A stretch of DNA of 64,000 bases, from positions 1 to 64,000 of the forward strand of contig SCUE01000025.1 in assembly GCA_004297775.1 (NCBI GenBank). Reading direction: 5' to 3'. The stretch comes from Chloroflexota bacterium. Lineage in GTDB: Bacteria > Chloroflexota > UBA6077 > FW602-bin22. The position numbers were made by a program, and so were the translations under genes. Shown one piece after another: positions 4,349 through 48,712 of this stretch. Each line of letters begins with the position of its first letter. Positions within the stretch are counted from its first letter, which is position 1. The notes under the pieces were generated by a model, which saw nothing but the letters and a program-made list of their open reading frames with translations, did not search any database and was not told the DNA's origin.

Positions 4349-5197
4349 ATGCCATTCGAGCGTATGACATGGCCGAACGGCGCGCGCTGCGCCGTCGCGC
4401 TCACCTTCGACAACTTCGGCGAATCGCTCGATCTGCTGAAGTTCGGCCACGCCGGCGGCGCCCTGGCTGATGGCGTCTACGCGCCGCGTCGAGGCGTCGA
4501 GCGCATCCTCGACATCCTCGATCGACACGGCATCCCGGGGACATTCTTCGTCGAAGGATGGAACGCGCGTAAGTACGCCTACCTCTTGCGCAACGTGGCC
4601 GAACGCGGTCACGAAGTCGGCGCCCACGGCTGGATGCACGAAACATGGGACAAGCTTGAGCCCAAACAAGAACAGGCGCTCATCGCGCGCACGACCGACG
4701 CGCTCGCGGCGGTCCTCGGCCGCGTGCCGCGCGGGTGGCGCTCCCCCGGCGGCTTGACGACGACCGCGACCCTCCCGCTGCTTCTCGACGCGGGTTATCG
4801 ATACGACAGCTCCTTTGGCGACGAGGACGTGCCGTACCACATGGCCGTGACGGCGGATCGGCCGCGCGATGCCATTGTCGAACTACCGTGGACGTGGCAG
4901 CTCGACGACGCGGTGTTCTACGGGCACAACAGCGCGCGCATCAGTTCGGCCGAGACCGTGCTTGGGCTCTGGAAGGAGGAGTTCGATGCCGCCTACGCGA
5001 TGACCGGTTTCTATATGCCGGTCTGCCATCCGCGGTTCAGCGGACGCCCGGCGCGCGCGATCACACTCGATCGACTCGTCGCGTACATTCGCCAGCACGA
5101 CGGCGTTTGGTTCGCGCGCTGCGAAGAGATCGCCGACCACGTTCGCGGCCTCGCGATCACGCCAAGATACCAGGCTCCAGAGGCGCTGCCGGAATGA
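4349..5197 (+). CDS. polysaccharide deacetylase (NodB-type) family protein
   Basis: The 282-residue protein has the NodB fold motifs: ALTFDNFGES near residue 18 (usual TFDD, here D21-N22), EVGAHGWMH (metal-binding histidines), GWRSPGG and a C-terminal MPVCHPRFSGR. The family removes N-acyl groups from glycans; some members act on amides such as allantoin. ATG 4349 is chosen because AGGAGG lies five bases upstream at 4338-4343, although the frame is open to 4316. The Asp-to-Asn change occurs in some subfamilies and leaves the substrate open. There is no signal peptide, suggesting a cytoplasmic role. Confidence 0.8.
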   Translation: MPFERMTWPNGARCAVALTFDNFGESLDLLKFGHAGGALADGVYAPRRGVERILDILDRHGIPGTFFVEGWNARKYAYLLRNVAERGHEVGAHGWMHETWDKLEPKQEQALIARTTDALAAVLGRVPRGWRSPGGLTTTATLPLLLDAGYRYDSSFGDEDVPYHMAVTADRPRDAIVELPWTWQLDDAVFYGHNSARISSAETVLGLWKEEFDAAYAMTGFYMPVCHPRFSGRPARAITLDRLVAYIRQHDGVWFARCEEIADHVRGLAITPRYQAPEALPE

Positions 5198-6201: not shown

Positions 6202-6822
6202 ATGGGCAGCACGCTGGCGCAATTGCGCGCGTCGCTCCGTCAGGAACTGCGCGACGAGGATACCGCGGCATACACCTGGCCGGACACCATCCTGGATCGA
6301 CACCTCCAGCGCGCAATCGCCGAAACGCAGGCCGCCGCGCCGACGATCGTCAGCATCATCGCGACGATGCCGAACCCGGCCAGTCCGCGCCTGAACCTGT
6401 CTTCGCTGATCTCCGAAAGCGCACATCTCTGGTTCGACGCGATCGAGTATCCGCTCGACTGCTATCCGCGGCAGTGGCTGCCGTTTCGCGAGGAGCCTTC
6501 GCGGGTTATGTTTCTTCTTGCGGAAGAAGTGCCCGCGTCCGGTGAGGACATCCGTGTCTGGTACGCGCGACCGTTCACCGTCTCGGCCGGGTCGAGCGAC
6601 ATGCCGACCGAGTACGACCCAATGGTGCTCGATGGCGCGGCCGTTTTCGCCCTGACCGATCAGGCGGTCGACCTCGCGCCGAAGCTCGTCGGGCGTGACG
6701 CGCCCGCTCTGTACGAAGCGCTAGCCGAGGCGCGCGCCGCCCGATTCTCCGCCGCGCTCGCGGCGCTCCGGTTGCGCTCGGCGACGCCGATGTGGCGACC
6801 GTCGTGGCGGTTGCCTCGGTAA
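6202..6822 (+). CDS. phage-like structural protein (possible head-tail connector)
   Basis: First gene of a compact rightward module. The 206-residue protein begins MGSTLAQLRASLRQELRDED, typical of small phage connector-like proteins that start with a helical bundle, and ends with an Ala-rich helix. No catalytic motif is seen. The placement next to other phage-like genes is the main support; similarity to a named family is not certain. Confidence 0.45.
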   Translation: MGSTLAQLRASLRQELRDEDTAAYTWPDTILDRHLQRAIAETQAAAPTIVSIIATMPNPASPRLNLSSLISESAHLWFDAIEYPLDCYPRQWLPFREEPSRVMFLLAEEVPASGEDIRVWYARPFTVSAGSSDMPTEYDPMVLDGAAVFALTDQAVDLAPKLVGRDAPALYEALAEARAARFSAALAALRLRSATPMWRPSWRLPR

Positions 6823-6902
6823 TGCGTCGGCGTGGCATCACGATCCACGTCGGCGGCAGTGCCAGCGCAGATGACCAACCCAGTTTCCGAAGGAGGACGC
6901 TC

Positions 6903-7679
6903 GTGACGATCATCGCGACCCAGGATGGCCAGCCGGTCGCGGCCGGCAACCGCTTCCCGGTCGAGCTCTACGGACCCAACGGCGCCCCGCTCTTCCCCGC
7001 CAAGCGCCTCGCCGCCGACAACCTCGCCCTACCCACCACCATCGACGTCCTCGCCACCCTGCTCGGCTACAACGGCGCCACCCTCGACATGATCCGGACC
7101 GCCGCCGCCTACCTCAACGGCGCAACCCCGGAAACAGCCGGCGTCGCGCGCGTCAACGCCGGTCTCGTCGTCCAGGGATCCGACGGCACCAACCGCAGCG
7201 TCCAGGCCGCAAACACCGACGGCCTCTCTCTCGAGTTCGCCCTCGCCGTCGGCGAGCGCCTCTACAACGGCACCAATTCCGATCGCCGACGCGGCAACAC
7301 CGAAGGCACCCTGCTCGCCAGCGCCGCGCGCGCGGCCACGACCGCCACCGCCGCGCAGACCAACCACAACGCCCAGGGACTCATCGTCTTCCTGAACATC
7401 ACAATCGCCGGCGCATCCGGCGGACTCACAACGCAAATCATCGCCGTCGATCCCGTCGGCGCCGGATCAACCATCCTCCTTCAATCCGGCCTCATCTCCG
7501 CGACCGGCCTCTACGCCTACGAACTGCGACCCGGCGCCGATACCGCCGCGCTCGGCGGCGGCTCCGGAAACCTCACCGTCCGCAACTCCGGATCCCTCCC
7601 CCGAACCTTCAAGGTCCAGATCGCCCACACACTCGCCGATTCGTGGACCTACTCCGTCGGCTACGCCCTGCTCGTCTAG
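6903..7679 (+). CDS. phage-like tail/structural protein
   Basis: GTG 6903 is chosen because AGGAGG at 6891-6896 lies six bases upstream. The 258-residue protein starts with an FPVELYGPNGAPLFPAKRL segment and continues with Ala/Gly/Thr-rich beta-prone sequence ending WTYSVGYALLV, as in virion surface or tail proteins. Codons end in C far more often than in flanking chromosomal genes. No enzymatic motif was found, so the structural role is inferred from composition and context. Confidence 0.5.
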   Translation: MTIIATQDGQPVAAGNRFPVELYGPNGAPLFPAKRLAADNLALPTTIDVLATLLGYNGATLDMIRTAAAYLNGATPETAGVARVNAGLVVQGSDGTNRSVQAANTDGLSLEFALAVGERLYNGTNSDRRRGNTEGTLLASAARAATTATAAQTNHNAQGLIVFLNITIAGASGGLTTQIIAVDPVGAGSTILLQSGLISATGLYAYELRPGADTAALGGGSGNLTVRNSGSLPRTFKVQIAHTLADSWTYSVGYALLV

Positions 7680-8385: not shown

Positions 8386-10476
8386 TTGCACACCCTCACA
8401 TCCACCCTTCAGACAGAGATCCGCAAGCCATCGCGCACCCTCGCACTCTCCGCGATCGTCACCGGCCAGCCGCCCGAAGCCCACGGATGGGAGTTCGCCG
8501 CCCTCCACACCGACGCCCTCGCCGACACAGCCCACGGCTCCACCATCGCCCCATCCGGCGCCCTCTACCAGGTCCGCCTCGACGGCTCCACCGTCAAGGC
8601 CCGCCGCATCGCCGATCCCTCCGCCGTCGCCGACTGGACCGGATCCACATGGATCACCATCGCCACGTCAGGAACCGCGACCCCCGGCGTCGCCATCGCC
8701 AGCGATCCCACCCTCGGCACCGATAGCGTCTACGTCTTCTGGGTCGATTCCACCGACGGCCGCACCATCCGCGCCTCCGTCTCCACCGATGGCGTCACCT
8801 GGACGAACGAAGTCGTCATCGTCGAGAACGCCGCCTACCAGGTCCGCCACGTCGCCGGTGTCCTCACCGCCGGCGAGATTCATTGCGTCTACGTGCTCGA
8901 TCAGCAGTCCGGCGCGCCCGATGAGTTCCTCGTGTCCATCGAGCGCGTCGCCGCCGTGTGGGGAACGCGCGTTCTACAGGCCACCGCCCGATACAACTGC
9001 AACGGCATCGGCGCCGCCAGGGGAGAAGGTCTCACCGATATCCACGTCGTCGTTGCCGACGGCGAGGGTACCAACGGCCTCGAACGGCGTCTCTCCGTCG
9101 CCACCTTCGATACCGTCGGCAACACCTGGACCGCCGCGTCATCCGCCATCATCAAGCACAGCAGCGGGTCCGGGTTCGACTTCCGCCGCCCGCGCCTGGC
9201 CATGCCGACCACCGCGTCACCGCGCCACGCCCTCACCTGGGTCGAGTCATACGCCGGCTCGGGCGCGACCCCGGCCTACGAGCGGCCCATGCTCTGTCTC
9301 TCACCCTCGCGTCTCTGGTTTCCCGAATGGGTCCCCTGGGACCAGGCCACACAGTACGGCTTCGACCTGCTCCGCGCCGCGGCCGCTGTCTGGTACCTCG
9401 TCGGCGCCAAGTACGTCCACCGCGCCCCGTCCGACGCCATCACCCTCGCCGCCAACCGCGTCGACGTTTCGGCCGACGTTGCCTCGATCCGCATTGACAC
9501 CGCCCGCGCGAACGGACCGACCACGGCCCACGTCAGGCTCGACGATCGCGGCACCTACACCACGGCGGCAGTGAGCGGCGCCACAAAGATCGTCCGCCCG
9601 GGCTCGCGCCTCTCCATCAAGCTCGGCTACCGCACATCCGCCGGCGCCGAGGGTATCTGGCAAGCGCCCCTCTGGATCGATCGCGTCGATCATGTGTTCG
9701 CCGACGATCGCTGGTGGCTCGATATCCGCGCGATCGACGCCTGGTCCATCCTCGATCGCTTGCACCCCGCCATCACCACGCAGTTCACCGCCGCCACCAC
9801 GATTCAAGCCCTGTTGGAGCGCATCCTCTGGCGCGTCGTCGCCGTCGCCCCGACGACCCCGACAAGCCTCAACATCTCTTTGTCGGGCGCCATCTGGAAC
9901 CCCTCGCGAAACTTCGCCGACATCGCCCGCGAGCTGCTCGACCTCGCCGGCACGCGCCTCCGCTTCCGCACCGACCAGGCCGCCACCGACGGCGCGGGTT
10001 GGGCCAGCGCGCTCGCCCAGGCCCTCGAAACGACCGCCCAGGCCTCCACCTACACCTACGGCACCGATCACCCCATCCTCGCCCTCACCGCCACCCTGGG
10101 CGGCCAAAGAATCAACCACGTGGCCGCCGCGGGCGCCACCGCCGGCCCCTACCTCACCGATAGCCACGATCACACCGCCATCCGCCGATGGTGGCGCCGG
10201 TTGACGAGCGCCCTCGTCGATCGACGCATCGGCTCCCTCGCCAATGTCCAGACCGCCGGCGACGCCGCCTTGCGCCAGGACCAGGCCGCCGACGAAGGCG
10301 ATAGTCTCGAGGTACCGCTCAACCCGGCGCAGGAGATCGGCGACACCATCGCCATCACGTCCGCCCGCGCCGGTCTCTCCGCCGCCCTCTACGTCATCGT
10401 CGGCCAGCGCATCAGCGTCGTCCGCATCGGCAACCGCCCACACGCCACCAGCCGCTACGACCTCGCCGCCCTCTGA
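8386..10476 (+). CDS. large phage-tail-like protein
   Basis: The 696-residue protein is the largest of the module. The first third has repeated beta-strand units such as TWITIATSGTATPGVAIA and VSTDGVTW, resembling beta-propeller (BNR/sialidase-like) blades used in tail fibres. The later part (from about 420) has DDRWWLDIRAIDAWSILDRL and ends with a beta-rich DTIAITSARAGLSAALYVIV segment, like tail hub or tip proteins. The start is TTG 8386 with GAGG upstream. Ligand binding or host recognition would fit but is inferred. Confidence 0.5.
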   Translation: MHTLTSTLQTEIRKPSRTLALSAIVTGQPPEAHGWEFAALHTDALADTAHGSTIAPSGALYQVRLDGSTVKARRIADPSAVADWTGSTWITIATSGTATPGVAIASDPTLGTDSVYVFWVDSTDGRTIRASVSTDGVTWTNEVVIVENAAYQVRHVAGVLTAGEIHCVYVLDQQSGAPDEFLVSIERVAAVWGTRVLQATARYNCNGIGAARGEGLTDIHVVVADGEGTNGLERRLSVATFDTVGNTWTAASSAIIKHSSGSGFDFRRPRLAMPTTASPRHALTWVESYAGSGATPAYERPMLCLSPSRLWFPEWVPWDQATQYGFDLLRAAAAVWYLVGAKYVHRAPSDAITLAANRVDVSADVASIRIDTARANGPTTAHVRLDDRGTYTTAAVSGATKIVRPGSRLSIKLGYRTSAGAEGIWQAPLWIDRVDHVFADDRWWLDIRAIDAWSILDRLHPAITTQFTAATTIQALLERILWRVVAVAPTTPTSLNISLSGAIWNPSRNFADIARELLDLAGTRLRFRTDQAATDGAGWASALAQALETTAQASTYTYGTDHPILALTATLGGQRINHVAAAGATAGPYLTDSHDHTAIRRWWRRLTSALVDRRIGSLANVQTAGDAALRQDQAADEGDSLEVPLNPAQEIGDTIAITSARAGLSAALYVIVGQRISVVRIGNRPHATSRYDLAAL

Positions 10477-38485: not shown

Positions 38486-39462
38486 GACGCTGCCTCCAGT
38501 GCGTGGTAGGTGACGATGAGGTCCGCGCCGGCCCGTCGAAATGCCGTCAGACTCTCGAGAACGATGCTGCGCTCGTCGATCCAGCCGTTCGCGGCGGCGG
38601 CCTTGACCATCGCGTACTCGCCGCTGACGGAGTACGCGGCCAGAGGTACGTCGAAGCGATCGCGCGCGCGCGCCAGCACATCCAGGTAGGCGAGACCCGG
38701 CTTGACGAGGACGATGTCGGCGCCCTGCTCGATGTCGAGTTCGATCTCGCGAAGCGCCTCGCGCCCGTTGCGGGGATCCATCTGGTGCGACCGCCGATCG
38801 CCGAACGTCGGTGCGGATCCGGCCGCTTCACGAAACGGACCGTAGAAGGCGGAGGCGAACTTGGCGGCGTACGAGACGATCGGAAGATGGCTGAATCCGG
38901 CGCCGTCGAGCGAGCGGCGAATCGCGCCGATGCGACCGTCGAACATGTCCGATGGCGCGATGAGATCGGCCCCGGCGGCGGCGTGACTCGTCGCGACCCG
39001 ACAGAGCGCCGCCACGCTCGCGTCATTGACCGGGTTCTCCGGCGCTCCGTCGGGAACGAATCCGCAGTGCCCGTGGCTGGTGTACTCGCAGAGGCACACG
39101 TCGGTGATGACGACCAGATCGGGCGCAACCTGTTTGATCCGACGGACCGCCCGTTGGACGACACCGGCGTCGTCCCAGGCCCCGCGACCATCGTCGTGCT
39201 TCTCATCGGGCACACCAAACAGGAGCACCGCGCCGATACCGGCATTGGCGGCGGCCTCGACAATGCGCGGAAGTGCCGCGAGCGACCAGCGTTCGACGCC
39301 GGGCATCGATGTGATTGGGCGCGTTCCACTGGCGGCCTCATCGATGAAGAGCGGCCGGATGAGATTGCGCGGCGCGATGTCGACCTCGGCGATCAGGTTG
39401 CGTAGCGCGGCCGTTCGTCGAAGTCGGCGCGGTCGATGGATCAGATCGAGTTGCTCGGTCAC
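38467..39462 (-). CDS. hemB: delta-aminolevulinic acid dehydratase (porphobilinogen synthase)
   Basis: 331 residues. Zinc-type cysteines appear in [14 protein letters not shown], and [11 protein letters not shown] carries a Schiff-base Lys. Condenses two 5-aminolevulinates to porphobilinogen in the cytoplasm. It overlaps hemL by 19 bases and hemD by four bases. Confidence 0.94.
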
Positions 39463-40217
39463 GTCGCGAGCGCCTCACTCGGCGGTAGAAACGGCGCGAC
39501 CGCGTCGAGGAATCCGTGCAGATCGACCGACCGAGACACGCGCGCCGGCGGGAGACCCAGCTCGATCGCGGCCGCTCCGGTGGTCGGGCCGATCGCGACG
39601 ATCGGCGCGCGACAGCAGGCATCGTGCCCGACCGCGACGATGAGGCCGCGAACGGCGCTCGGACTCGACACGACGATCGCCCGCACGCGATCGGCGAGCA
39701 GATCGCGTCGAAACCTGGGTGATTTTCGCGCGCGTACGGTCGTGCGGTACGCCTCGATCGCGTGTACGGTCGCGCCACGTCGGACGAGGATGCTCGGCAC
39801 TTGATCGTCGGCGCGATCGCCGCGTGGAAGAAGGATCGACTCCCGTTCGTCGATCGGCATCGTCTCGGCCAGGCTGACGCCGGTCGCTCGTCGCGGCGTC
39901 CAGATGTCGGTCCATCCGGCGCGTCTGGCCGCGCGCGCGGTCGCCGGACCGACCGCTGCGACGCGCGTTTCGCGGGACGATCCGTTGGCGTACGGCCGAA
40001 ACGCCGCGACCGCGTTGACGCTGGTGAACACGATCCAGTCGAACTCGGCGAGCCGCGTCGCGACGTCGACCAGTTGCGATGGATCGCTCGGTGGCGACAC
40101 ATCGAGAACACTCAGGCAGCGCGCCTCGACGCCCCGATCGCCGAGCGCATCGACCAGATGCCGGGCGCGGCCGCGCGGGCGCGCGATCAGAATGTACTGA
40201 CCGGATTCTCTCGTCAC
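39459..40217 (-). CDS. hemD: uroporphyrinogen-III synthase
   Basis: 252 residues from GTG 40217, GTGA-overlapping the fusion gene stop. HemD is poorly conserved; visible support is the two-lobe pattern with FDWIVFTSVNAVAAF, VAAVGPATARAARR, DLLADRVRAIVVSSPSAV and IVAIGPTTGAAAIELG. It closes hydroxymethylbilane with inversion of ring D. Position between hemC and hemB agrees. Confidence 0.86.
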   Translation of the reverse strand: MTRESGQYILIARPRGRARHLVDALGDRGVEARCLSVLDVSPPSDPSQLVDVATRLAEFDWIVFTSVNAVAAFRPYANGSSRETRVAAVGPATARAARRAGWTDIWTPRRATGVSLAETMPIDERESILLPRGDRADDQVPSILVRRGATVHAIEAYRTTVRARKSPRFRRDLLADRVRAIVVSSPSAVRGLIVAVGHDACCRAPIVAIGPTTGAAAIELGLPPARVSRSVDLHGFLDAVAPFLPPSEALAT

Positions 40218-42355
40218 GGAGTTACCTCCACGTTGGTCGCGAAGCAGCCGCAAGGCGTGGCAAGGGCCGCGATAACGCGCGCCGCCGCCGTGACCCCGAG
40301 GCGGAAGCCGTCGTCCGCCGCCCCATCGACAACGATCGTCGCGCGCCGATCGCCGTCGGCCGCGAACGCGCGCACGTGCATCGACTCGCGATTGATTCGG
40401 GCATAGGCGCCGACGCCGAGCTCACAACCCGCGCCCATCGCCAAAAGGAATGCGCGCTCGGCTTCGACACAGCGCCGTGTCGAGCCGTCGTCGATGCGCC
40501 CGAGGATTTCGCGAACAGTCCAGTCGTCGGCCCGGCACTGAATGCCGAGTGCGCCCTGCCCGACCATCGGCACGAGACGCTCGGCGTCGATCGGATAGGT
40601 GACGCGATCGAGCCGCCCGAGCCGTTCGAGGCCGGCCATCGCCAGGATCAGCCCGTCCACATCGCCGCGATCGAGCTTGGTCAGTCGGGTATCGACGTTG
40701 CCGCGAATCTCGACCAGACGGAGATCGGGTCGAATCGCGCGAAGATGGCTGGCACGGCGGGGCGAACCGGTTCCGACGATCGCGCCACGCGGCAGTTCGG
40801 GCCACGGCGCCGGACCGCCGAGATCGCGCGCATCCGGCCGTAGCGCGAGGGCATCGCGCGGATCGCCGCGACGCGGAAACGCCGCGAAGACCAGTCCGGG
40901 GCGCTCGCCGGCGGGAACGTCTTTCAGACTGTGGACCGCGATGTCGACGCGACCGTCGCGTAGCGCGTTCTCGATCTCGGTCACAAACGCGCCGACGCCG
41001 CCGATTTCTCGAATCGGCGCCTCGGACTGGCGATCGCCGACCGAGGAGAGCGGCACGATCGTGACAGTCAGACCGGGCCGGGCGCGCCGGATGAGTTCGA
41101 CGACGATGTCGGTCTGCGCGCGGGCGAGCGCGCTCCGTCGCGTGCCAATGCGGATTGCGCGCTCGCGTGGGTTCAGCATTGGGCCGGTTCCGAGGTCGTG
41201 ACCGGATCCGCCGCGCAGGGCGACACTCGGGAGATGCAGCAGCGACGCCGCGACCTGCCGCGTCGCTCGATCGACCGCCGCGCGACCCTCGGGAGACAGA
41301 TTGCGTGACGCGCGGCGGGCGATGGCCGCGCGTCTGGTCTCAGCCGCCGTGTGGAGGGCCGCGATCGTCGAAGCCGCGGCCAGGACGCGCGTCCGGGTGG
41401 CGAAGGCCGCGACGTGATCGGCCACAATCGCACGGACCGCCGGCGCATCGATCATGCGTTCGCGCGACGTCTCCGCGGCCAGCGCGTGGACGGCGTCGAG
41501 GTCGATTAACGTCACACCCGGCAGTGCGCCGATGTCTGGATCGGTATCGCGCGGGACCGCCAGGTCGACGATCAATAGAGGACGCGCGCCGCGTCGCGCC
41601 ATCGATCGAGCGACGAGATCGCGATCCAGAACCCACGACGGCGCCGACGTCGCCGTGATGACGACAGTGGCCAGGGCAACGGCGGCCGAGAGGTCGTCGA
41701 GCCCGAGGGCGCGACCGGGCGCCCGCGCGACGGCAACGGCGCGATCCAGTGAGCGATTCGCGATGTCGATCCGCGGAACGCCGAGTCGGCGCAGCCCGGC
41801 CGCGATGAGCGTGCCGGTATGCCCGGCGCCCACGACGAGGGCGTGGTCGATCGGACCCGCAACGTGTTGCCGCGTCACGGCCAGCGCGGCCGCGCCAATC
41901 GAGGCCGGGCCTCGCGCGATGCCGGTTGTTGCGCGAGCGGCCCGGCCGGCGCGGATCGCCTCGGTGGCGAGCGCATCCAGAACCGGCCCAAGCGCGCCGC
42001 GCTCGCGCGCGATGGCGCGTGCGTGGGCTATTTGACCGAGGATTTCCGGCTCGCCGACCAGTTCGGACTCGAGCCCCGCCGCGACCGCCATCAGGTGCTC
42101 GGCTACGTCGAGCCCGGAGACGCGGTGTGAGGCGCGGTTCCAGGTGATCGCCGCGGCTGGCGTCGTTCCGCCACGAGACGCGAGCGTGTACAGCTCGACG
42201 CGGTGGCAGGTCACCAGCGCGAACGCCTCATCGACCGCGCCCTGGACCGACGCTAGGAGCGCCGCGGCGTCCCCAACGTCGCCCGCGACCCGATCGCGCT
42301 CGATCGCATCGAAGGCGCGCAGGTCGATCGCGCGCAGCGTGAGACGTTCGAGCAC
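40214..42355 (-). CDS. hemA: glutamyl-tRNA reductase fused to porphobilinogen deaminase (HemA-HemC)
   Basis: One frame of 713 residues. HemA part (about 1-375): nucleophilic C50 in VTCHRVELY, then AAGLESELVGEPEILGQ and the NADPH-binding ALVVGAGHTGTLIAAGL. A short linker leads to HemC (about 393-713): IRIGTRRSALARAQTD, VHSLKDVP, GTGSPRRASHLRAIRPD, EIRGNVDTRL and dipyrromethane-binding C644 in GCELGVGAY. M393 is a possible internal start giving a free HemC. The fusion joins the first and fourth steps from glutamyl-tRNA. Confidence 0.9.
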   Translation of the reverse strand: MLERLTLRAIDLRAFDAIERDRVAGDVGDAAALLASVQGAVDEAFALVTCHRVELYTLASRGGTTPAAAITWNRASHRVSGLDVAEHLMAVAAGLESELVGEPEILGQIAHARAIARERGALGPVLDALATEAIRAGRAARATTGIARGPASIGAAALAVTRQHVAGPIDHALVVGAGHTGTLIAAGLRRLGVPRIDIANRSLDRAVAVARAPGRALGLDDLSAAVALATVVITATSAPSWVLDRDLVARSMARRGARPLLIVDLAVPRDTDPDIGALPGVTLIDLDAVHALAAETSRERMIDAPAVRAIVADHVAAFATRTRVLAAASTIAALHTAAETRRAAIARRASRNLSPEGRAAVDRATRQVAASLLHLPSVALRGGSGHDLGTGPMLNPRERAIRIGTRRSALARAQTDIVVELIRRARPGLTVTIVPLSSVGDRQSEAPIREIGGVGAFVTEIENALRDGRVDIAVHSLKDVPAGERPGLVFAAFPRRGDPRDALALRPDARDLGGPAPWPELPRGAIVGTGSPRRASHLRAIRPDLRLVEIRGNVDTRLTKLDRGDVDGLILAMAGLERLGRLDRVTYPIDAERLVPMVGQGALGIQCRADDWTVREILGRIDDGSTRRCVEAERAFLLAMGAGCELGVGAYARINRESMHVRAFAADGDRRATIVVDGAADDGFRLGVTAAARVIAALATPCGCFATNVEVTP

Positions 42356-42441: not shown

Positions 42442-43092
42442 CTAGGGACGGGCGATCAAGCCATGTTCCTCGGCCGCGTGGACCAGTTGCTCGCGGTCGT
42501 GAACGTCGAGCTTGGCCATGAGGTTCGCGCGATGGTTCTCGACCGTCTTGACGCTGAGTGTCAGGCGATCGGCGATCGCGCGATTGGTCAGGCCGTCGGC
42601 GATGTGGCCCAGCACCTCGCGCTCGCGCGCGGTTAGCGTGACGCCGGTCGGCGCGTCATCGAGCCGCTTCAGGTAGTCGTCGATGACACGGCGCGCGATC
42701 GACGGGTACAGGAAAGCCTCGCCGGCATGGGCGGCGCGAATGGCCGTGCCAAGCTCCGAGGTGGCGGTTCGCTTCAGGACGTAGCCGCTCGCTCCGGCAC
42801 GCAGGAGGCGCGTGACGTACTCCTGGTTATCGTGCACGCTGAGGCCGATGACGCGGGTCGCCGGGTGGGATCGACGGATCTCAGCCGTCGCGTCGATGCC
42901 GTTCATGCCGGGCATACTGACGTCCATGAGAATGACGTCCGGCGCCAGACGAGCCACCAAGTCGACCGCGCCCCGTCCGTCGGCCGCCTCACCGACGACG
43001 TCCATGTCGCCGAGCGAGGTGAGGCAGGCCCGAATCCCCTCTCGCACCAGCGTGTGATCGTCCGCGATCGCGACGCGAATCCGCGCGCTCAC
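42442..43092 (-). CDS. NarL/FixJ-type response regulator
   Basis: 216 residues: receiver with phosphoacceptor D57 (VILMDVSMPGMNG) and C-terminal LuxR-type helix-turn-helix (LTAREREVLGHIADGLTNRAIADRLTLSVKTVENH). Follows its histidine kinase by seven bases. It probably regulates transcription; targets unknown. Confidence 0.9.
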   Translation of the reverse strand: MSARIRVAIADDHTLVREGIRACLTSLGDMDVVGEAADGRGAVDLVARLAPDVILMDVSMPGMNGIDATAEIRRSHPATRVIGLSVHDNQEYVTRLLRAGASGYVLKRTATSELGTAIRAAHAGEAFLYPSIARRVIDDYLKRLDDAPTGVTLTAREREVLGHIADGLTNRAIADRLTLSVKTVENHRANLMAKLDVHDREQLVHAAEEHGLIARP

Positions 43093-43099
43093 CGGCCAG

Positions 43100-44197
43100 T
43101 CATTTCGACGACGCCGAAGCGAGGACGCGCTCTGACCCGTTGTGGGCGGTCTTCACCGAAACGCCATCGCGGTGGGCGTCGGCCGGGATCGAGAAGCGCA
43201 GACGCGTGCCGCCCACCGCCCGCGGGCCGATTTCGAACTCACCGTTCAGGAGATACGCGCGCTCGGCGATGCCGAAGAGGCCGAGTCGCCGCGTGTCAGC
43301 GCGATCTCCCTCGACCGGCGCTATTCCCCGACCATCGTCCTCGACCAGAGCGACGAGTCGATCGGCATCACGCGCGAGACGGATCGTCACGCCGGTGGCC
43401 GCGGCATGCTTCACGACGTTTGTGAGCGCCTCCTGGACGACCCGGAACAGCGCGATTTCGATGTCGACGCCGAATCGTTCGCTCTCATCGACGCCGACGA
43501 CGACGAACTCGATCGCCAATCCGGACCGGGCCATGACCGCTCGCGCGTAGGAGCGAATCGCCGCGACCAGACCGAGATCGTCGAGAACTGACGGACGCAG
43601 ATCGATCGCGAGATTGCGAATCTCATCGAGCGTCGCGATAGCCATGTCGCGGAGACGTCGGACATTCGCGCGGGCGTCGGCCAGATGGTCGCCACGCATC
43701 TCGTTCTCGCCGCGTTCGAGACCGATGATCAGCGCGGTCAGGGCCTGGCCGGCCTCATCGTGCAGCTCCCGCGAGATGCGCTGTCGTTCGGCCTCTTGCG
43801 CGGCGATGACCTCGGTCGCCAGGACCCGCAGCCGGTCGTTCTGCTCGGCGACGCGCGCATTCGCTTGACTGAGCGCGGTCCAGAGATCGCCGACCGCGCG
43901 AGCGACCGCGCGCGTGTCCGGATCGCCGCCGGCGCCCGATGGCAGAACCATGTCCGCGCCGTTCGACCGAAATCGGTCGATCGCGACGCGGAGATCGCGC
44001 AATGGGCGGAATGTGTACTCGATGCCCCTCCACGTCACGAGAGCACTGACCGCCAGGGCAAAGCCAATCAAGGTGAGATGCATCGCGGTCGTGATCGCGC
44101 CCGGCTGGAGGAACCGAGTCGTGATCTCGGTCGCGAGCCAGCCACCACCCATGACGCAGACGAGATTCGTCAGGAAGATTCGCCAGAAGATCGGCAT
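43100..44197 (-). CDS. membrane sensor histidine kinase (HisKA_3 type)
   Basis: 365 residues with two N-terminal membrane segments (about 5-25 and 38-58), a short cytoplasmic linker with HAMP-like sequence, phosphoacceptor H146 in RISRELHDEAGQALTAL and an HATPase_c domain (VQEALTNVVKHA N-box, EDDGRGIAPV G1). The extracellular part is tiny, so it may sense within the membrane. It forms an operon with the NarL regulator and is divergent from the peptide/comQ-like locus, 199 bases away. Confidence 0.88.
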   Translation of the reverse strand: MPIFWRIFLTNLVCVMGGGWLATEITTRFLQPGAITTAMHLTLIGFALAVSALVTWRGIEYTFRPLRDLRVAIDRFRSNGADMVLPSGAGGDPDTRAVARAVGDLWTALSQANARVAEQNDRLRVLATEVIAAQEAERQRISRELHDEAGQALTALIIGLERGENEMRGDHLADARANVRRLRDMAIATLDEIRNLAIDLRPSVLDDLGLVAAIRSYARAVMARSGLAIEFVVVGVDESERFGVDIEIALFRVVQEALTNVVKHAAATGVTIRLARDADRLVALVEDDGRGIAPVEGDRADTRRLGLFGIAERAYLLNGEFEIGPRAVGGTRLRFSIPADAHRDGVSVKTAHNGSERVLASASSK

Positions 44198-44396
44198 GGC
44201 GCAAGCTTAGGCCGCGTCAGCGACGCGATGCGGGTGCCTTGCGAACCCGCGAACATTCGGATTGCTTTCCATGGGCATCAGGGGTATGAAACCTCGTACT
44301 TTCCCCAGTACACAGGTCGGCAGAATTACGCGAAGATTCGCCCACGCTGATGATCAGCGGGTCTCGCGTGGCGATACCCCGAGGGAGGACAGGCGA
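44198..44396. promoter_or_regulatory. divergent spacer with three inverted repeats
   Basis: Between the two signalling operons are GTACT-N6-AGTAC at 44296-44311 (NarL-like arrangement), GCGAA-GA-TTCGC at 44330-44341 and CGCTGA-TGA-TCAGCG at 44345-44359. The GGGAGGAC ribosome binding site of the peptide gene is at 44384-44391. They are candidate sites for the NarL/LuxR regulators or an mRNA hairpin near the rightward start. Promoter boxes cannot be placed with certainty. Confidence 0.4.
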
Positions 44397-44600
44397 ATGG
44401 ACACAGTTGCACTCCGGCATGCCGTTCGGGCCGCTGTTCGCGGCGGCGATGCATCGTCAACCGTGAAGGGTGCCGATCGGGCCGCGATCGTGGCCTGGCA
44501 GCGCAAGGCTCGGGCGGCCGGCTCGCCGGCGCGACTCGTGCCACCGACGATGGCCTTCATCTGGGTAGCTCCACCCGAAGGCGTTGCCGCCCCGGCCTAG
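44397..44600 (+). CDS. small Trp-containing peptide, candidate ComX-like pre-pheromone
   Basis: 67 residues from ATG 44397, GGGAGGAC upstream. An Ala/Arg-rich N-terminal part is followed by a Pro-rich tail, PPTMAFIWVAPPEGVAAPA, with a Trp 12 residues from the end. ComX pheromones are the C-terminal pieces of such short peptides, isoprenylated on Trp by ComQ. The gene overlaps the prenyl-synthetase-like gene by 17 bases and precedes a ComP-like kinase and a ComA-like regulator. There is no sequence match to Bacillus ComX that I can claim; the assignment rests on size, Trp, tail and locus. Confidence 0.5.
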   Translation: MDTVALRHAVRAAVRGGDASSTVKGADRAAIVAWQRKARAAGSPARLVPPTMAFIWVAPPEGVAAPA

Positions 44601-45600
44601 GACTTGGTTTGGCGCGGACGCGCGACTGCCCGACGTTCGGGAGCGCGTCCGCGCAACACTGACTGACGCGACCGATCTGGCGCCGTTTCGAGAGTTGCTG
44701 GCCGTGCTCCTCGCGCGCCCCGGACGTGTGCTTGCGCCGAATGGCGCGCCAAAGTGGCCGGCGTTCGTGCTTGACACGTGCCTCGTCCTTGGGGGCGATC
44801 TTGACGCCGCGGTCGAAGCGGCGGCCGCAGTCGACCTGATTGCGGCGGCAGCCGACGTGGTCGACGATCTGGTCGACGACGACTGGAACGGCCCGCCACG
44901 CGATGCGCATCGCGCCCTGAACGCGACCCTCGCTCTCACGTCCCTCGCGCAGATGCGCGCCTTCGGACTCGCCGATCGCCTCGGATCGGAACGCGCGGCG
45001 CGCATCGCCGCGATCCTGTCCGGATCGTTGACCGCGGCCGCGGCCGGCGAGGATCTCGACATTCGGCTCGAAGACGATCCGACGACTACCGAAGAAATCG
45101 CGCTGGACATGACATCCCGGAAGTCGGGCGAGCTGATATCGATGGCGTTTCAGGTTGGCGCCGCGATCGCCACCGATGACCGCGGCGTGATCGAGCAGTG
45201 TGGCGCGTTTGGTCGCCGCGTCGGGATCGTCGCGCAAGTCGTCAACGACATCGCCGGTATCGCCATCCTGGAGTCGGCGCGCGGTAGCGACCTGGCGCGG
45301 CGCAAGAAGACGCTCCCCGTCGCGTACGCGCTCCGCTGCGCCGAAGCCGAGGGCGTCTCGCCAATTCTGGCCTGGTACGGCCTGGCTGATGGGCACGCGA
45401 CCGAATCGGCGGTCGCCGCCGCCATCCAGGAACTCGGCGGCCATCACTACGCCTGGGTCGTCGCCGACGCGCATCGGCGCGAGGCGCTACGCATTCTCAG
45501 CAGGTTGACACGCGCAACTGGTCGGCGCGACATCCAGCACTTGCGGCGGCTGCTCCCTGACCTGACCGGAGGAGTCGTGCGCGCGAAAGCTGACGCGTGA
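44584..45600 (+). CDS. polyprenyl-synthetase-family enzyme, candidate ComQ-like isoprenyltransferase
   Basis: 338 residues from TTG 44584. All-alpha isoprenyl synthase: first Asp-rich motif DVVDDLVDDDW (about 98-108), second region VVNDIAGI where most synthases have DDxxD, and SDLARRKKTLPVAYAL. A degenerate second motif is typical of ComQ, which transfers a prenyl group to ComX Trp instead of extending chains. Coupled to the small peptide gene by overlap. An ordinary lipid prenyl synthase cannot be excluded. Confidence 0.7.
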   Translation: MPPRPRTWFGADARLPDVRERVRATLTDATDLAPFRELLAVLLARPGRVLAPNGAPKWPAFVLDTCLVLGGDLDAAVEAAAAVDLIAAAADVVDDLVDDDWNGPPRDAHRALNATLALTSLAQMRAFGLADRLGSERAARIAAILSGSLTAAAAGEDLDIRLEDDPTTTEEIALDMTSRKSGELISMAFQVGAAIATDDRGVIEQCGAFGRRVGIVAQVVNDIAGIAILESARGSDLARRKKTLPVAYALRCAEAEGVSPILAWYGLADGHATESAVAAAIQELGGHHYAWVVADAHRREALRILSRLTRATGRRDIQHLRRLLPDLTGGVVRAKADA

Positions 45601-45743
45601 ACGGCGCGCAGCCGTCGCGCGGGCAAGCGATGTCGGACGAACACCGCGACACCGTTTTCAATCTTCGCTCCGCGGCGTGCCGAGAATCGCCGACCAAGAA
45701 TGAAGCGGAACGTTGTAGGCTGTCGGGTCAGGTTGATTGACCG

Positions 45744-48113
45744 ATGAAACTGCGCGTGGAAAGTCCCGCGTCGATCTGGCGGCGCGCGGCTGGTAGACCG
45801 GCGATCGCGGTGATCGCGGTCTTGCTCCTTCTGGTCGCCGTCGACACCGCGTTCGAAGCCACGACGCGCCCGGCGGTGCTGGGCATTCGCGTGGCGATCG
45901 CCGATTCGTCCCCGACGCTGGCGTGGGTGGTGCCGGGAGCCGCGGCGTGGGATCAGGGAGCCCGACCCGGTGATCGCGTCGTTACGATCGAGGATCGGGC
46001 GATCGGAACCGATACATCGTCCGCGGCAATCGAATCGGCGCGCGCGTTAACGCTCCGATCGACCGATGGCGCCCTCACGCGCGTCTCGGTCGAGCAGCCG
46101 CACGCACTGGCAGGCTGGACCTACCGGCTCACATTCCTCTTGATCGCTATGGCCATCGCTGGTGTCGGCGTGGCCGTCTATGCGCTTTCGCGCCAACCGG
46201 GTATCGGGTTCATCTTCTTCGGGATGTCGTACTCAGCCGCGATGGCGCTGACGGCCGCGATCGCGACGCCGTTCGGCGTGGAGTGGGCAACCGCCGCGAC
46301 GTTCTTGTCGGTGCTCACGTTCGGGTTCTTCAGCGTCCTATTCGCGATGGTATTTCCGATCGATCGCACCGCGACCGCCTGGGGACGGTCGATCGTCTTG
46401 CTCGCGGGCGCTCTCACAGCGGTCCAATTCGCATTGCGAGTCATCGCTTTTGTGACGCCGGCCTTCTATGAGTTTGGCCGGCGCACGATGTTCGGGCTCG
46501 TCGGCCTGGAATTGGTCGGCGCGGGATTCTTCGGGGTGACGGCCCTACTCAGCGCCCGTCGGCGCGGCCGCGGCCGCCGCTCCCTGAGCATCATCGTGAT
46601 TGGCACGATCGCGGGTATCGCACCTCTCAGCATTCTCAGTCTGCTGCCACGCGCAATCGCCCAGGCCGAGATCGTGCCGCCAGAAGCGGCCGCGATCGGT
46701 CTCGCCTTGATTCCGCTCGTTTTCGGTGGAGCCATCTTGAGCCGACAGTTCCTGGGGATCGATCGATTGGTTCGACGCGGCACCATCGCGATCGCGGTCT
46801 GGCTCATTCTCATCGGGCTCTTCACGGTCGCGATCGAAGCCGCGCACGGTCCGTTTGATCGATTGCTCGGAGAGGGTCCCTTGTGGTCGCTCGTCGTGAC
46901 GGCATTCGTGACAGCCGCGTTCTGGCCGTTGCAGTCGCGGCTCCGGTTCCAGACCGAGCGCCTGCTCTTTCGCGACGTCTACGACTACGCCGAGACGGTT
47001 CAGCGGCTTGGGGCGGATCTTTCGCGCATGACCGGCATGGAGCGCATCGCCACGTACGTTCTGAAGCAGCTCGGGCAGGTCCTCGATCTCAAGTGGGCAT
47101 CGCTCTTGTTGAAAAGTGGTGACATCGTCGCCCGCTTCGAATGGAGTGCCGAGGTCGGAGGCTCCGCGCCGTCTATGGCAGCCGGGCCGGCGTCATCCGA
47201 GACCGCCGGCGGCGAATGGACGGCGCATCCAGGTCTGGAGGTACCGGACCGAAGGGTCGTCGACCTCATCAGCGAGGCAACTCCGGTGGGCTCGCTGGAA
47301 CTGGGACCGAAGCGGCACGACGTGCAGCTCTCGGCAACCGACGACTCGCTTCTCGCCGCGATCGTGCCACTCATCGCGACGACGCTTCGGAACGCCCTGC
47401 TGGTGGAGCGCCTCGAACGCCAGGTCGCGGCGCTGAAAGAGCGCGAGGAGGCGCTGGAGAAGCTAGGCGAGCGTTTCCAGAAAGTGCAGGACGACGAGCG
47501 GCGGGCGCTCGCGCTCGACCTGCACGACGACGCGCTCCAGCGAACGATCACGTTGGCGCGGCAGATCGACGCCGTGACGCTGCCCGGTGTGGCTGAACTG
47601 CGGCGCGAGGCAGAAGACATCGTCGCGTCGCTCCGGGCCATCTGCTCGGGACTCTGGCCGACGGTGCTCGATGATATCGGGCTGGCGGGGGGACTCCAGC
47701 AATTGGCGAACGATTGTCGAGCGCGATCTGAATTAGAAGTCGATGTCAACCTGCCAGACGCCGGTTCCGAACGACACACCGATGAGACATCGGAAATGCG
47801 ACTGGCTCTGTACCGCGTCGTACAGGAAGCGCTGAACAATACGATGAAGCACGCCAATGCCCGTCGCGCGATCGTCACGCTGGGCGGTGACCGTTCGACC
47901 GTTGTCGTCCGGGTCGAGGACGATGGGCGCGGGATCGCCGAACTCGACGAAGCATCGTCCGGCAAGCGCGCCGGCTACGGACTGCTGGGCATGCGCGCGC
48001 GTGTGCGGCCGTGGAACGGCTCGGTCGACGTTCGGCCGGGGCCGTTGGGCGGCACGGTCGTCGAAGCCAGGATCCGCTTCGATTGGTTTCGTCACACGGC
48101 CGCACCGACATGA
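45744..48113 (+). CDS. multi-pass sensor histidine kinase with PDZ-like N-terminus, candidate ComP-like receptor
   Basis: 789 residues. TM1 (19-37), PDZ-like domain (about 42-120, PGAAAWDQGARPGDRVVTIE), then about eight or nine more TM segments (127-396), a GAF-like domain (430-555), coiled coil (555-585), phosphoacceptor H594 in LALDLHDDALQRTI and HATPase_c (685-780; N-box QEALNNTMKHA, G1 DDGRGI). The layout and length resemble Bacillus ComP, which reads the ComX pheromone. Follows the ComQ-like gene by 143 bases and overlaps the regulator gene (ATGA). Confidence 0.82.
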   Translation: MKLRVESPASIWRRAAGRPAIAVIAVLLLLVAVDTAFEATTRPAVLGIRVAIADSSPTLAWVVPGAAAWDQGARPGDRVVTIEDRAIGTDTSSAAIESARALTLRSTDGALTRVSVEQPHALAGWTYRLTFLLIAMAIAGVGVAVYALSRQPGIGFIFFGMSYSAAMALTAAIATPFGVEWATAATFLSVLTFGFFSVLFAMVFPIDRTATAWGRSIVLLAGALTAVQFALRVIAFVTPAFYEFGRRTMFGLVGLELVGAGFFGVTALLSARRRGRGRRSLSIIVIGTIAGIAPLSILSLLPRAIAQAEIVPPEAAAIGLALIPLVFGGAILSRQFLGIDRLVRRGTIAIAVWLILIGLFTVAIEAAHGPFDRLLGEGPLWSLVVTAFVTAAFWPLQSRLRFQTERLLFRDVYDYAETVQRLGADLSRMTGMERIATYVLKQLGQVLDLKWASLLLKSGDIVARFEWSAEVGGSAPSMAAGPASSETAGGEWTAHPGLEVPDRRVVDLISEATPVGSLELGPKRHDVQLSATDDSLLAAIVPLIATTLRNALLVERLERQVAALKEREEALEKLGERFQKVQDDERRALALDLHDDALQRTITLARQIDAVTLPGVAELRREAEDIVASLRAICSGLWPTVLDDIGLAGGLQQLANDCRARSELEVDVNLPDAGSERHTDETSEMRLALYRVVQEALNNTMKHANARRAIVTLGGDRSTVVVRVEDDGRGIAELDEASSGKRAGYGLLGMRARVRPWNGSVDVRPGPLGGTVVEARIRFDWFRHTAAPT

Positions 48114-48712
48114 CGATACGCGTCGTGATCGTCGACGACCACCCGTCGCTGAGAGCCGGCACGCGCGCATTCTTCGGCGGCGCCTCCGACATCGAGGTCG
48201 TCGGCGAAGCAACGACCGGCGCCGAGGCCATCAGTCTGGCCACGAAGCTGGGACCCGATGTCGTCCTGCTCGATATTCAGCTACCGGACGTCAGCGGCGT
48301 CGAGGTGGCTCGTCAATTGCGCGACGCGGCGCCCCGCTCGGCCGTGATCGTGCTGACGGGACACAACACGGAGACGTACGCCACCGAATTGGCGAAGCTT
48401 CGGATCGTGGCGATTCTGGATAAGACGTCGACCGCGCGCGAGATCGTCATGGCGGTCCGCGAGGCCGCGTTCGGGCGGCGACAGATCGTTCGCCAGCGCG
48501 GCGAGGAGGATGGGCCAATCGTCGCGCTCACCGAGCGAGAACGGCAGGTCCTGACTCTCCTGGCCGGCGGCTATCGAAACAACCAGATCGGGGATGCGCT
48601 GGGTATGTCGGAACGGACCGCCGAGTTCCACGTCGGCAACGTGCTGGCCAAGCTGCACGCCAAGGGGCGCGGCGAAGCGGTCGCGATTGCGCGGCAGGAA
48701 GGGCTCCTGTAG
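48110..48712 (+). CDS. NarL/LuxR-type response regulator, candidate ComA-like output
   Basis: 200 residues from ATG 48110, overlapping the kinase stop. Receiver has D10-D11 and phosphoacceptor D55 (VVLLDIQLPDVSG); C-terminal LuxR helix-turn-helix LTERERQVLTLLAGGYRNNQIGDALGMSERTAEFH. Paired with the PDZ-type kinase; Bacillus ComA has the same domain order and also uses Asp55. Likely regulates the upstream peptide promoter or other targets. Confidence 0.85.
   Translation: MTIRVVIVDDHPSLRAGTRAFFGGASDIEVVGEATTGAEAISLATKLGPDVVLLDIQLPDVSGVEVARQLRDAAPRSAVIVLTGHNTETYATELAKLRIVAILDKTSTAREIVMAVREAAFGRRQIVRQRGEEDGPIVALTERERQVLTLLAGGYRNNQIGDALGMSERTAEFHVGNVLAKLHAKGRGEAVAIARQEGLL

Follow-up and report, generated by a model that had tools for sequence, protein, structure and literature searches.

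The 64,000-nucleotide stretch of Chloroflexota DNA analysed here (GenBank assembly GCA_004297775.1, contig SCUE01000025.1, positions 1 to 64,000 of the forward strand; hereafter the window) contains a locus that very probably makes and senses a tryptophan (Trp)-prenylated peptide, by means of an enzyme and a receptor related to ComQ and ComP of the ComQXPA quorum-sensing system of Bacillus. It comprises four genes – X, Q, P and A, in that order and all on the plus strand, at 44397-48712 – and all four are present as set out in a preliminary description made from the sequence alone, the essentials of which our analysis supports. Profile comparisons show Q to be homologous to ComQ and P to ComP; the description's assignment of the proteins to ComQXPA types thus stands for the enzyme and the receptor, and not for X, in which homology to ComX is undetectable.

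The nature of the enzyme is the central issue. Q (44584-45600, plus strand; 338 amino acids when read from a TTG codon) matches the family PF00348 (polyprenyl_synt, E 3.2e-19), in keeping with its first reading as an isoprenyl-synthetase-like gene; the overlap with X that was reported with it amounts to 17 bases and holds only if the TTG at 44584 is the start, which is uncertain, and the first helix of the structural model starts at residue 10. A protein search with Q returned 57 proteins, of which 54 (at least 37% identity) form a subfamily, aligned as the window sequence plus 53 database proteins. Invariant in all 54 rows are the first and fifth Asp of the first Asp-rich motif (FARM), Gln 218, Asn 221 and Asp 222. 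In Q the FARM is intact (DDLVD, residues 94-98; 44863-44877), and the second Asp-rich motif (SARM), already recognized as degenerate, reads NDIAG (residues 221-225; 45244-45258), with ND in place of DD in every row of the subfamily. ComQ mutagenesis, as given in a review (PMC5331326), found Asp 1 and Asp 5 of the FARM to be required, and according to the same source the pseudo-SARM of ComQ must be NDxxx or GDxxx, DD being unsuitable for Trp prenylation. Both motifs of Q are of this ComQ form. Geranylgeranyl diphosphate (GGPP) and other polyprenyl diphosphate synthases of PF00348 share with Q the fold and the FARM, but are characterized by two DDxxD motifs and, in the 34 that we compared, by a His before the FARM; Q has neither the second DD nor this His. 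The two other PF00348 genes of the window's genome are both of the DD type, and ordinary synthases that might supply an isoprenyl donor are therefore present.

Homology to ComQ came from profiles built on a set of 19 ComQ proteins, 13 of which were aligned. Profile-profile comparison with the window subfamily gave a probability of 98.9% (E 1.7e-17, 216 columns, about 24% identity), and in a search of the whole of the window's own genome with the ComQ profile Q was the sole match up to E 10, at 2.7e-7. The 31 canonical synthase loci used as controls below were picked for having DD, which makes them a partly circular control for the ND motif; tests of that motif free of such selection come from the 54-row subfamily, from all three PF00348 genes in the window's genome and from the 16 found in four Firmicute genomes. 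Six of these 16 are ND and ten DD, and all six ND genes lie beside a sensor hit. A tree of 74 rows points in the same direction: a branch with 100/100 support splits 32 synthases of both phyla, nine of them from Firmicutes, from 42 sequences comprising ComQ and the Chloroflexota Q, and an earlier 74-row tree without the Firmicute synthases gave the same split at 100/99. Both trees are unrooted, so that ComQ and Q form one clade only if the root lies among the synthases. The shortened Q of loci L122 and L126 were left out of both, together with five further rows in the earlier and 14 in the later tree (mostly near-duplicates), as was L171, a DD-type Firmicute gene in which our script found no HDD before the FARM. 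By this computation Q lies on the ComQ side, away from the prenyl diphosphate synthases. The status of its homologues had been named in advance as a point on which the preliminary description would fall, and they do not resemble ordinary chain-length synthases, given the ND motif throughout the subfamily and the split from synthases of either phylum.

Searching for Q in 101 genomes – the window's own and 100 relatives – revealed two close relatives, in genomes G023 (50%) and G008 (47%). Their two loci, L034 and L035, have readable flanks, and in each a short X peptide with the fixed Trp stands directly upstream of Q; P and A follow, so that order and strand agree with the window, and A has REC and GerE domains in both; the neighbourhood predicted for relatives is thus found, and because it recurs the window cluster is not a chance assembly. 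A further X-Q-P-A locus is L127. The X peptides of L034 and L035 are present letter for letter in NCBI records as hypothetical proteins of Chloroflexi bacterium, and one database relative of Q carries the name Chloroflexota bacterium; the placement of the relatives puts the window, by kinship, in the Chloroflexota, the background first suspected.

X itself (44397-44600, plus strand), the small Trp peptide gene that had been placed first, is an ATG open reading frame (ORF) of 67 amino acids, the 3′ part of a longer open frame, with a probable ribosome-binding site of its own (GGGAGG, 44383-44388); Shine-Dalgarno-like sites of similar kind precede most of the 19 X genes compared. We regard it as a putative signal precursor. 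Its tail, PPTMAFIWVAPPEGVAAPA plus stop (44541-44600), contains the Trp whose codon (44562-44564) marks the putative site of prenylation. This residue, W56, is invariant among the window, L034 and L035, along with nine other fixed columns, and stands 12 residues from the C-terminus in the window and 11 in each of the other two; identity of the window peptide to its counterparts at the same position is 48% (L034) and 27% (L035). In three close pairs from other clades the ratio of nonsynonymous to synonymous substitution rates (dN/dS) of X is 0.07, 0.07 and 0.15, and X in those pairs is therefore under purifying selection. A search of 5.8 billion proteins with an X profile recovered only the three known X, the window's own among them, and none for the other database relatives of Q.

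P (45744-48113, plus strand; 789 amino acids from ATG) had been described as a kinase with a PDZ domain and multiple transmembrane helices; the length, the HATPase_c domain (1.4e-13) and the helix layout are confirmed, while PDZ_6 stays below the Pfam cut-off, at 6.1e-4 with the whole protein and 6.3e-5 with the N-terminal piece. One helix is followed by a PDZ-like loop (approximately residues 42-118; 45867-46097) and eight hydrophobic stretches. The structural model of the loop region has a beta-alpha fold (predicted local distance difference test, pLDDT, 75; predicted template modelling score, pTM, 0.50), and the loop lies between helices 1 and 2, where the published ComP model has its PDZ domain (PMC9620489); by analogy it is probably extracytoplasmic. 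P is 39% identical to its counterpart in L034 and 34% to that in L035. It does not reach Pfam HisKA_3 (PF07730), which the L035 protein reaches at 2.5e-6; a probable phospho-acceptor His (H594, codon 47523-47525) is invariant in 18 of 18 aligned kinases. For comparison we drew on 21 ComQ-type loci of Bacillus and Paenibacillus (one named only Bacilli), 13 of which yielded 14 ComP sensors. A crude hydropathy count finds the same arrangement in these and in the Chloroflexota sensors: a single helix and a loop some 85-115 residues long, followed by 7-10 further hydrophobic stretches. Aligned profile to profile with hhalign, the two groups gave a probability of 99.7% and E 3.2e-26 over 337 columns, at 11% identity.

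Whole-genome rankings in both directions served as the control for this comparison. With the Firmicute ComP-sensor profile, P scored 2.5e-7 in its own genome and the next match 0.55. In the reciprocal search of four Firmicute genomes with the Chloroflexota sensor profile the best hits lay near ComQ: the genome of Bacillus mojavensis (G400) gave one match, at 5.2e-26, adjoining ComQ, and all eight stretches at or below 1.5e-7 (seven proteins, one of them the second kinase in a row) lay no more than about 5 kb from an ND-type gene. The next match (3.9e-7) was a 90-position stretch away from ND genes, with weaker ones after it. These computations, made on sequence profiles, show that P has the sensor of ComP, a transmembrane helix, a PDZ-like loop and multiple further helices. 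The last gene, A (48110-48712, plus strand; 200 amino acids), is the NarL/LuxR-type response regulator that had been reported, with Response_reg (1.7e-25) and GerE (1.8e-17) domains and a 4-base ATGA overlap with P; its probable start is the ATG at 48110, the mechanical ORF list beginning it earlier, at 48011. A is 48% identical to the L034 regulator, 46% to that of L035 and 27-29% to two ComA. It has the make-up of ComA – REC plus GerE, about 200 amino acids, beside a kinase – in an architecture that is common.

The combination of Q and sensor extends well beyond the window's close relatives. At 1e-10 the sensor profile matched 138 of 400 Chloroflexota genomes; 40 stretches were fetched, chosen by score and nearness to Q matches, and in 18 of them Q lies upstream of the sensor on the same strand. 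Together with the window and five loci found through Q (L034, L035, L087, L088 and L090) this makes 24 Q-sensor loci in the phylum. ND was read in 21; L122 has a gap at this place, L126 has AD and L127 DD. A plausible X with Trp near its C-terminus precedes Q in 19 of 23 loci by our reading, L090 standing outside the count because it is cut by the contig end; the exceptions are L126, L129, L130 and L143. Counted mechanically (an ORF of 45-115 amino acids with Trp in the last 12), such a peptide occurs at 20 of 23 Q-sensor loci, compared with 10 of 31 among the DD-type synthase loci (Fisher p 8e-5); with Trp sought in the last six the figures are 17 of 23 and 7 of 31. The additional mechanical match, L130, appears spurious, and by eye so do the control matches. 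Scans with the Q profile matched 4 of 29 genomes of the class at 1e-40 and 75 of 400 of the phylum at 1e-35. Since below the top hits they mostly reach DD-type synthases, as the loci that were read indicate, most Q-sensor pairs were found via the sensor profile. A single-protein scan of genome contigs for named Chloroflexota loci returned none.

What the sensor is joined to varies. A kinase with a NarL-type regulator is found in the window, L034, L035 and L127; HisKA kinases, several with GAF, in L130, L134, L137, L142, L155, L156, L157, L158 and L161; and hybrid kinases with REC in L122, L138, L139, L140 and L141. The cut locus L143 is outside this listing. In L126 (1698-5066) and L129 (4276-7143) GGDEF-EAL domains follow a ComP-type sensor and a Q-like gene, and neither locus has a clear X. 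In L087 (8505-10751), L088 (4370-7711, also with GGDEF) and L090 (787-3150) a ComP-type sensor with an HD-GYP-type domain lies directly after a ComQ-like gene. PF13487 scores 3e-43, 3.1e-34 and 2.3e-39 in the three, their HD domains contain an HHE motif that we take to be HD-GYP-like, and the X tails read GTLDWWWS in L087 and GTLGWWA in L088. Sensors wired in this way to HD-GYP or GGDEF-EAL could read a lipidated peptide straight into the level of cyclic di-GMP (c-di-GMP). We think it probable that the Chloroflexota as a phylum have long communicated by Trp-prenylated peptides, through a conserved X-Q-sensor module coupled to interchangeable outputs, c-di-GMP enzymes included – a wider family of which ComQXPA would be one branch.

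Two further features of these loci are worth recording. In L122 the Q of genome G192 (6725-7408) looks shortened, and about 830 bases separate it from the receptor; the X frame of the locus is open. Three loci – L123 (4441-7399), L131 and L133 – have a ComP-type kinase and a NarL-type regulator with no Q in the fetched stretch, the L123 kinase being 37% identical to P of the window. They may eavesdrop on a signal that others produce, or respond to unrelated ligands.

By analogy, the window locus should work like ComQXPA, and the sequence of steps that we infer is the following. The two ordinary synthases of the genome would make an isoprenyl donor, from which Q would transfer a C10-C20 group to the indole of the Trp in the X tail. 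Once the precursor had been trimmed and had left the cell, the lipidated peptide would dock on the outer face of P, whereupon P would phosphorylate A and A would switch genes according to the level of peptide.

A number of observations weigh against this reading. The matches in the window's own genome are local, covering 144 of 307 positions of the ComQ profile with two candidates scored, and 77 of 399 positions of the ComP-sensor profile with five. On the ComQ/Q side of the tree the Firmicute ComQ keep together in a separate starred group, the window Q belongs to another, with 12 members and likewise starred, and the Q nearest to the synthases are five from Chloroflexota (L090 and L138-L141); for these reasons the window Q is not claimed as a close sister of ComQ. 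The best NCBIfam name for Q is encapsulin-cargo polyprenyl transferase, at 95 bits against a cut-off of 450. Among the 40 sensor stretches, 22 show no Q – some are cut by contig ends – and sensors lacking Q are common. No export or peptidase family was found among the six neighbouring window genes scanned. As to the peptide, Pfam assigns no family, ComX (PF05952) included, to X of the window, L034 or L035 (for reference, one Paenibacillus ComX scores 1.6e-13 and one Bacillus ComX 0.0022, under the cut-off), NCBIfam assigns none to the window X, and hhalign of the three window-clade peptides against Firmicute ComX is not significant (E 0.28). With all 19 X the value is 0.011, and once the window clade is removed 7e-4; homology of X to ComX is not claimed. 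Its Trp, 11-12 residues from the end, lies outside both the 5-10 residues given for ComX in the 2014 census (PMC4008528) and the 2-4 residues that one ComQ needs in vitro (PMC5331326), and is more distant from the C-terminus than that of most Bacillus ComX; the latter review already notes an exception to the terminal position of Trp, the natto pheromone. Between the window X and its relatives, dN/dS is 0.55-0.62 at high divergence.

The AlphaFold2 model of Q, an all-alpha synthase fold (pLDDT 93), adds to these points, its closest neighbours in the PDB being chain-length synthases. The structure search that had been proposed as a check recovered both these (GGPP and other polyprenyl synthases) and Ord1, whose entries 9v4g, 9v4h and 9v4i match at a template modelling score of about 0.7; on this model the fold by itself cannot separate a Trp prenyltransferase from a chain-length synthase. 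Were Q an ordinary short-chain prenyl diphosphate synthase, which happened to have a spurious ORF on one side and an unrelated two-component system on the other, its nearest PDB neighbours by structure and by sequence would be as observed, as would the names of its database relatives, which where given are mostly geranylgeranyl diphosphate or pyrophosphate synthase. Yet such a synthase would be expected neither to show ND throughout its 54-row subfamily, in a genome that already holds two DD synthases, nor to recur beside a ComP-type sensor in 24 loci, to share the ComQ side of the tree and to have X kept at the same place in its relatives, and we consider this explanation extremely improbable.

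The resemblance to Ord1, which farnesylates free Trp (PMC13290415), raises a different question: whether the acceptor prenylated by Q is a small molecule, for example indole or free Trp, with P sensing the product and X serving only as a translated leader or being an unrelated peptide. We consider this very improbable, given the plausible X with Trp near its C-terminus that precedes Q at 19 of 23 loci, the low dN/dS of the three close X pairs, and the weak matches, under the cut-off, of some X of other clades to leaders of ribosomally synthesized and post-translationally modified peptides (RiPPs), namely Frankia_peptide (2.7e-6) and LigA (1.8e-5). Those same RiPP-like leaders, together with PalX/PalQ/PalP of Paenibacillus alvei – a prenylated RiPP of the nitrile hydratase leader peptide (NHLP) type paired with a histidine kinase (PMC10853753) – lend some substance to a third possibility, that X is a prenylated antimicrobial RiPP autoregulated via P and A, a weapon doubling as its own inducer and not a dedicated signal. 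We hold this to be very improbable: no transporter, peptidase or immunity-type family occurs among the six window neighbours scanned, nor in the gene that precedes X in L034 and in L035 or in two more L035 genes, and the receptor has the sensor architecture of ComP. Prenylation of X by Q and its perception by P remain our preferred account.

How closely does the locus correspond to known systems? With ComQXPA (Dogsa et al. 2014, PMC4008528) it shares a homologous Q with intact FARM and an ND/GD pseudo-SARM, a homologous kinase of the same sensor type, a NarL-type regulator, a short peptide of variable sequence whose tail contains a Trp, and four adjacent genes on one strand. It differs in phylum, in the divergence of Q noted above, in an X without detectable similarity to ComX and with its Trp 12th from the end, and in the order X-Q-P-A (window, L034, L035 and L127) as opposed to Q-X-P-A, which counts against strict membership; Q-X-P-A is complete in 11 of the 21 Bacillus and Paenibacillus loci fetched, the rest being incomplete or different. 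Because order and Pfam ComX do not agree, we file the locus as a variant of ComQXPA and not as a strict member, despite its homologous core parts. PalX-PalQ-PalP, as described in PMC10853753, likewise clusters a trans-synthase-like Trp prenyltransferase, a small precursor peptide and a histidine kinase, and the RiPP-type leader and terminal Trp of PalX resemble X of other Chloroflexota clades. PalQ, however, is reported in that source to need a C-terminal Trp, to form its own sequence cluster and to be at most 25% identical to ComQ, whereas the window X does not end in Trp. Ord1 (PDB 9v4g-9v4j) has the all-alpha fold of Q and takes Trp or indole as acceptor. Its substrate, in contrast to the peptide proposed here, is a small molecule, and we know of no linkage of Ord1 to a peptide or receptor.

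Until now prenylated peptide pheromones have been regarded as peculiar to Bacillus and certain other Firmicutes. The 2014 census reports no ComQXPA outside that phylum (PMC4008528), no word starting with 'chloroflex' occurs in the main text of a 2026 review of Trp prenylation (PMC13290415) or of the PalQ paper (PMC10853753), and in the open-licence literature we found no earlier report of ComQXPA-like or Trp-prenylating systems in Chloroflexota. With homology of enzyme and receptor spanning two phyla, how old and how widespread the system is can be put to the test. The Chloroflexota, a phylum known in large part from uncultured members, gain a concrete candidate for cell-to-cell signalling, and enzymologists a large set of new ND-type candidate Trp prenyltransferases, some 19 of which adjoin a candidate substrate peptide. 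Receptors linked to c-di-GMP would, if true, be a new way of reading a peptide pheromone.

Divergent from X, on the minus strand, lie a HisKA_3 kinase (43100-44197) and a NarL-type regulator (42442-43092). In L034 the gene preceding X encodes a GGDEF-EAL protein and in L035 a type I phosphodiesterase family protein, and because other genes thus take this place we regard the divergent pair as a neighbour and not a part. Upstream of X in L035 is a perfect inverted repeat, GACTAGGGGAAACCCTAGTC (9702-9721), and in L034 another inverted repeat, AGGGTTAACCCT (4516-4527); each is a possible regulator site, and for neither was a counterpart found in the window promoter. A common regulator box upstream of X was considered and rejected: the matrix built from L034, L035 and L123 misses the window promoter, 216 of 639 window pieces scoring as high. 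Further window neighbours scanned comprise HemA-HemC, HemD, a DUF234 ATPase, DUF1385, a family 4 glycosyl hydrolase and DUF4276. The first of these is a single frame of 713 amino acids on the minus strand (40214-42355) that fuses glutamyl-tRNA reductase and porphobilinogen deaminase domains, with HemD adjoining it at 39459-40253.

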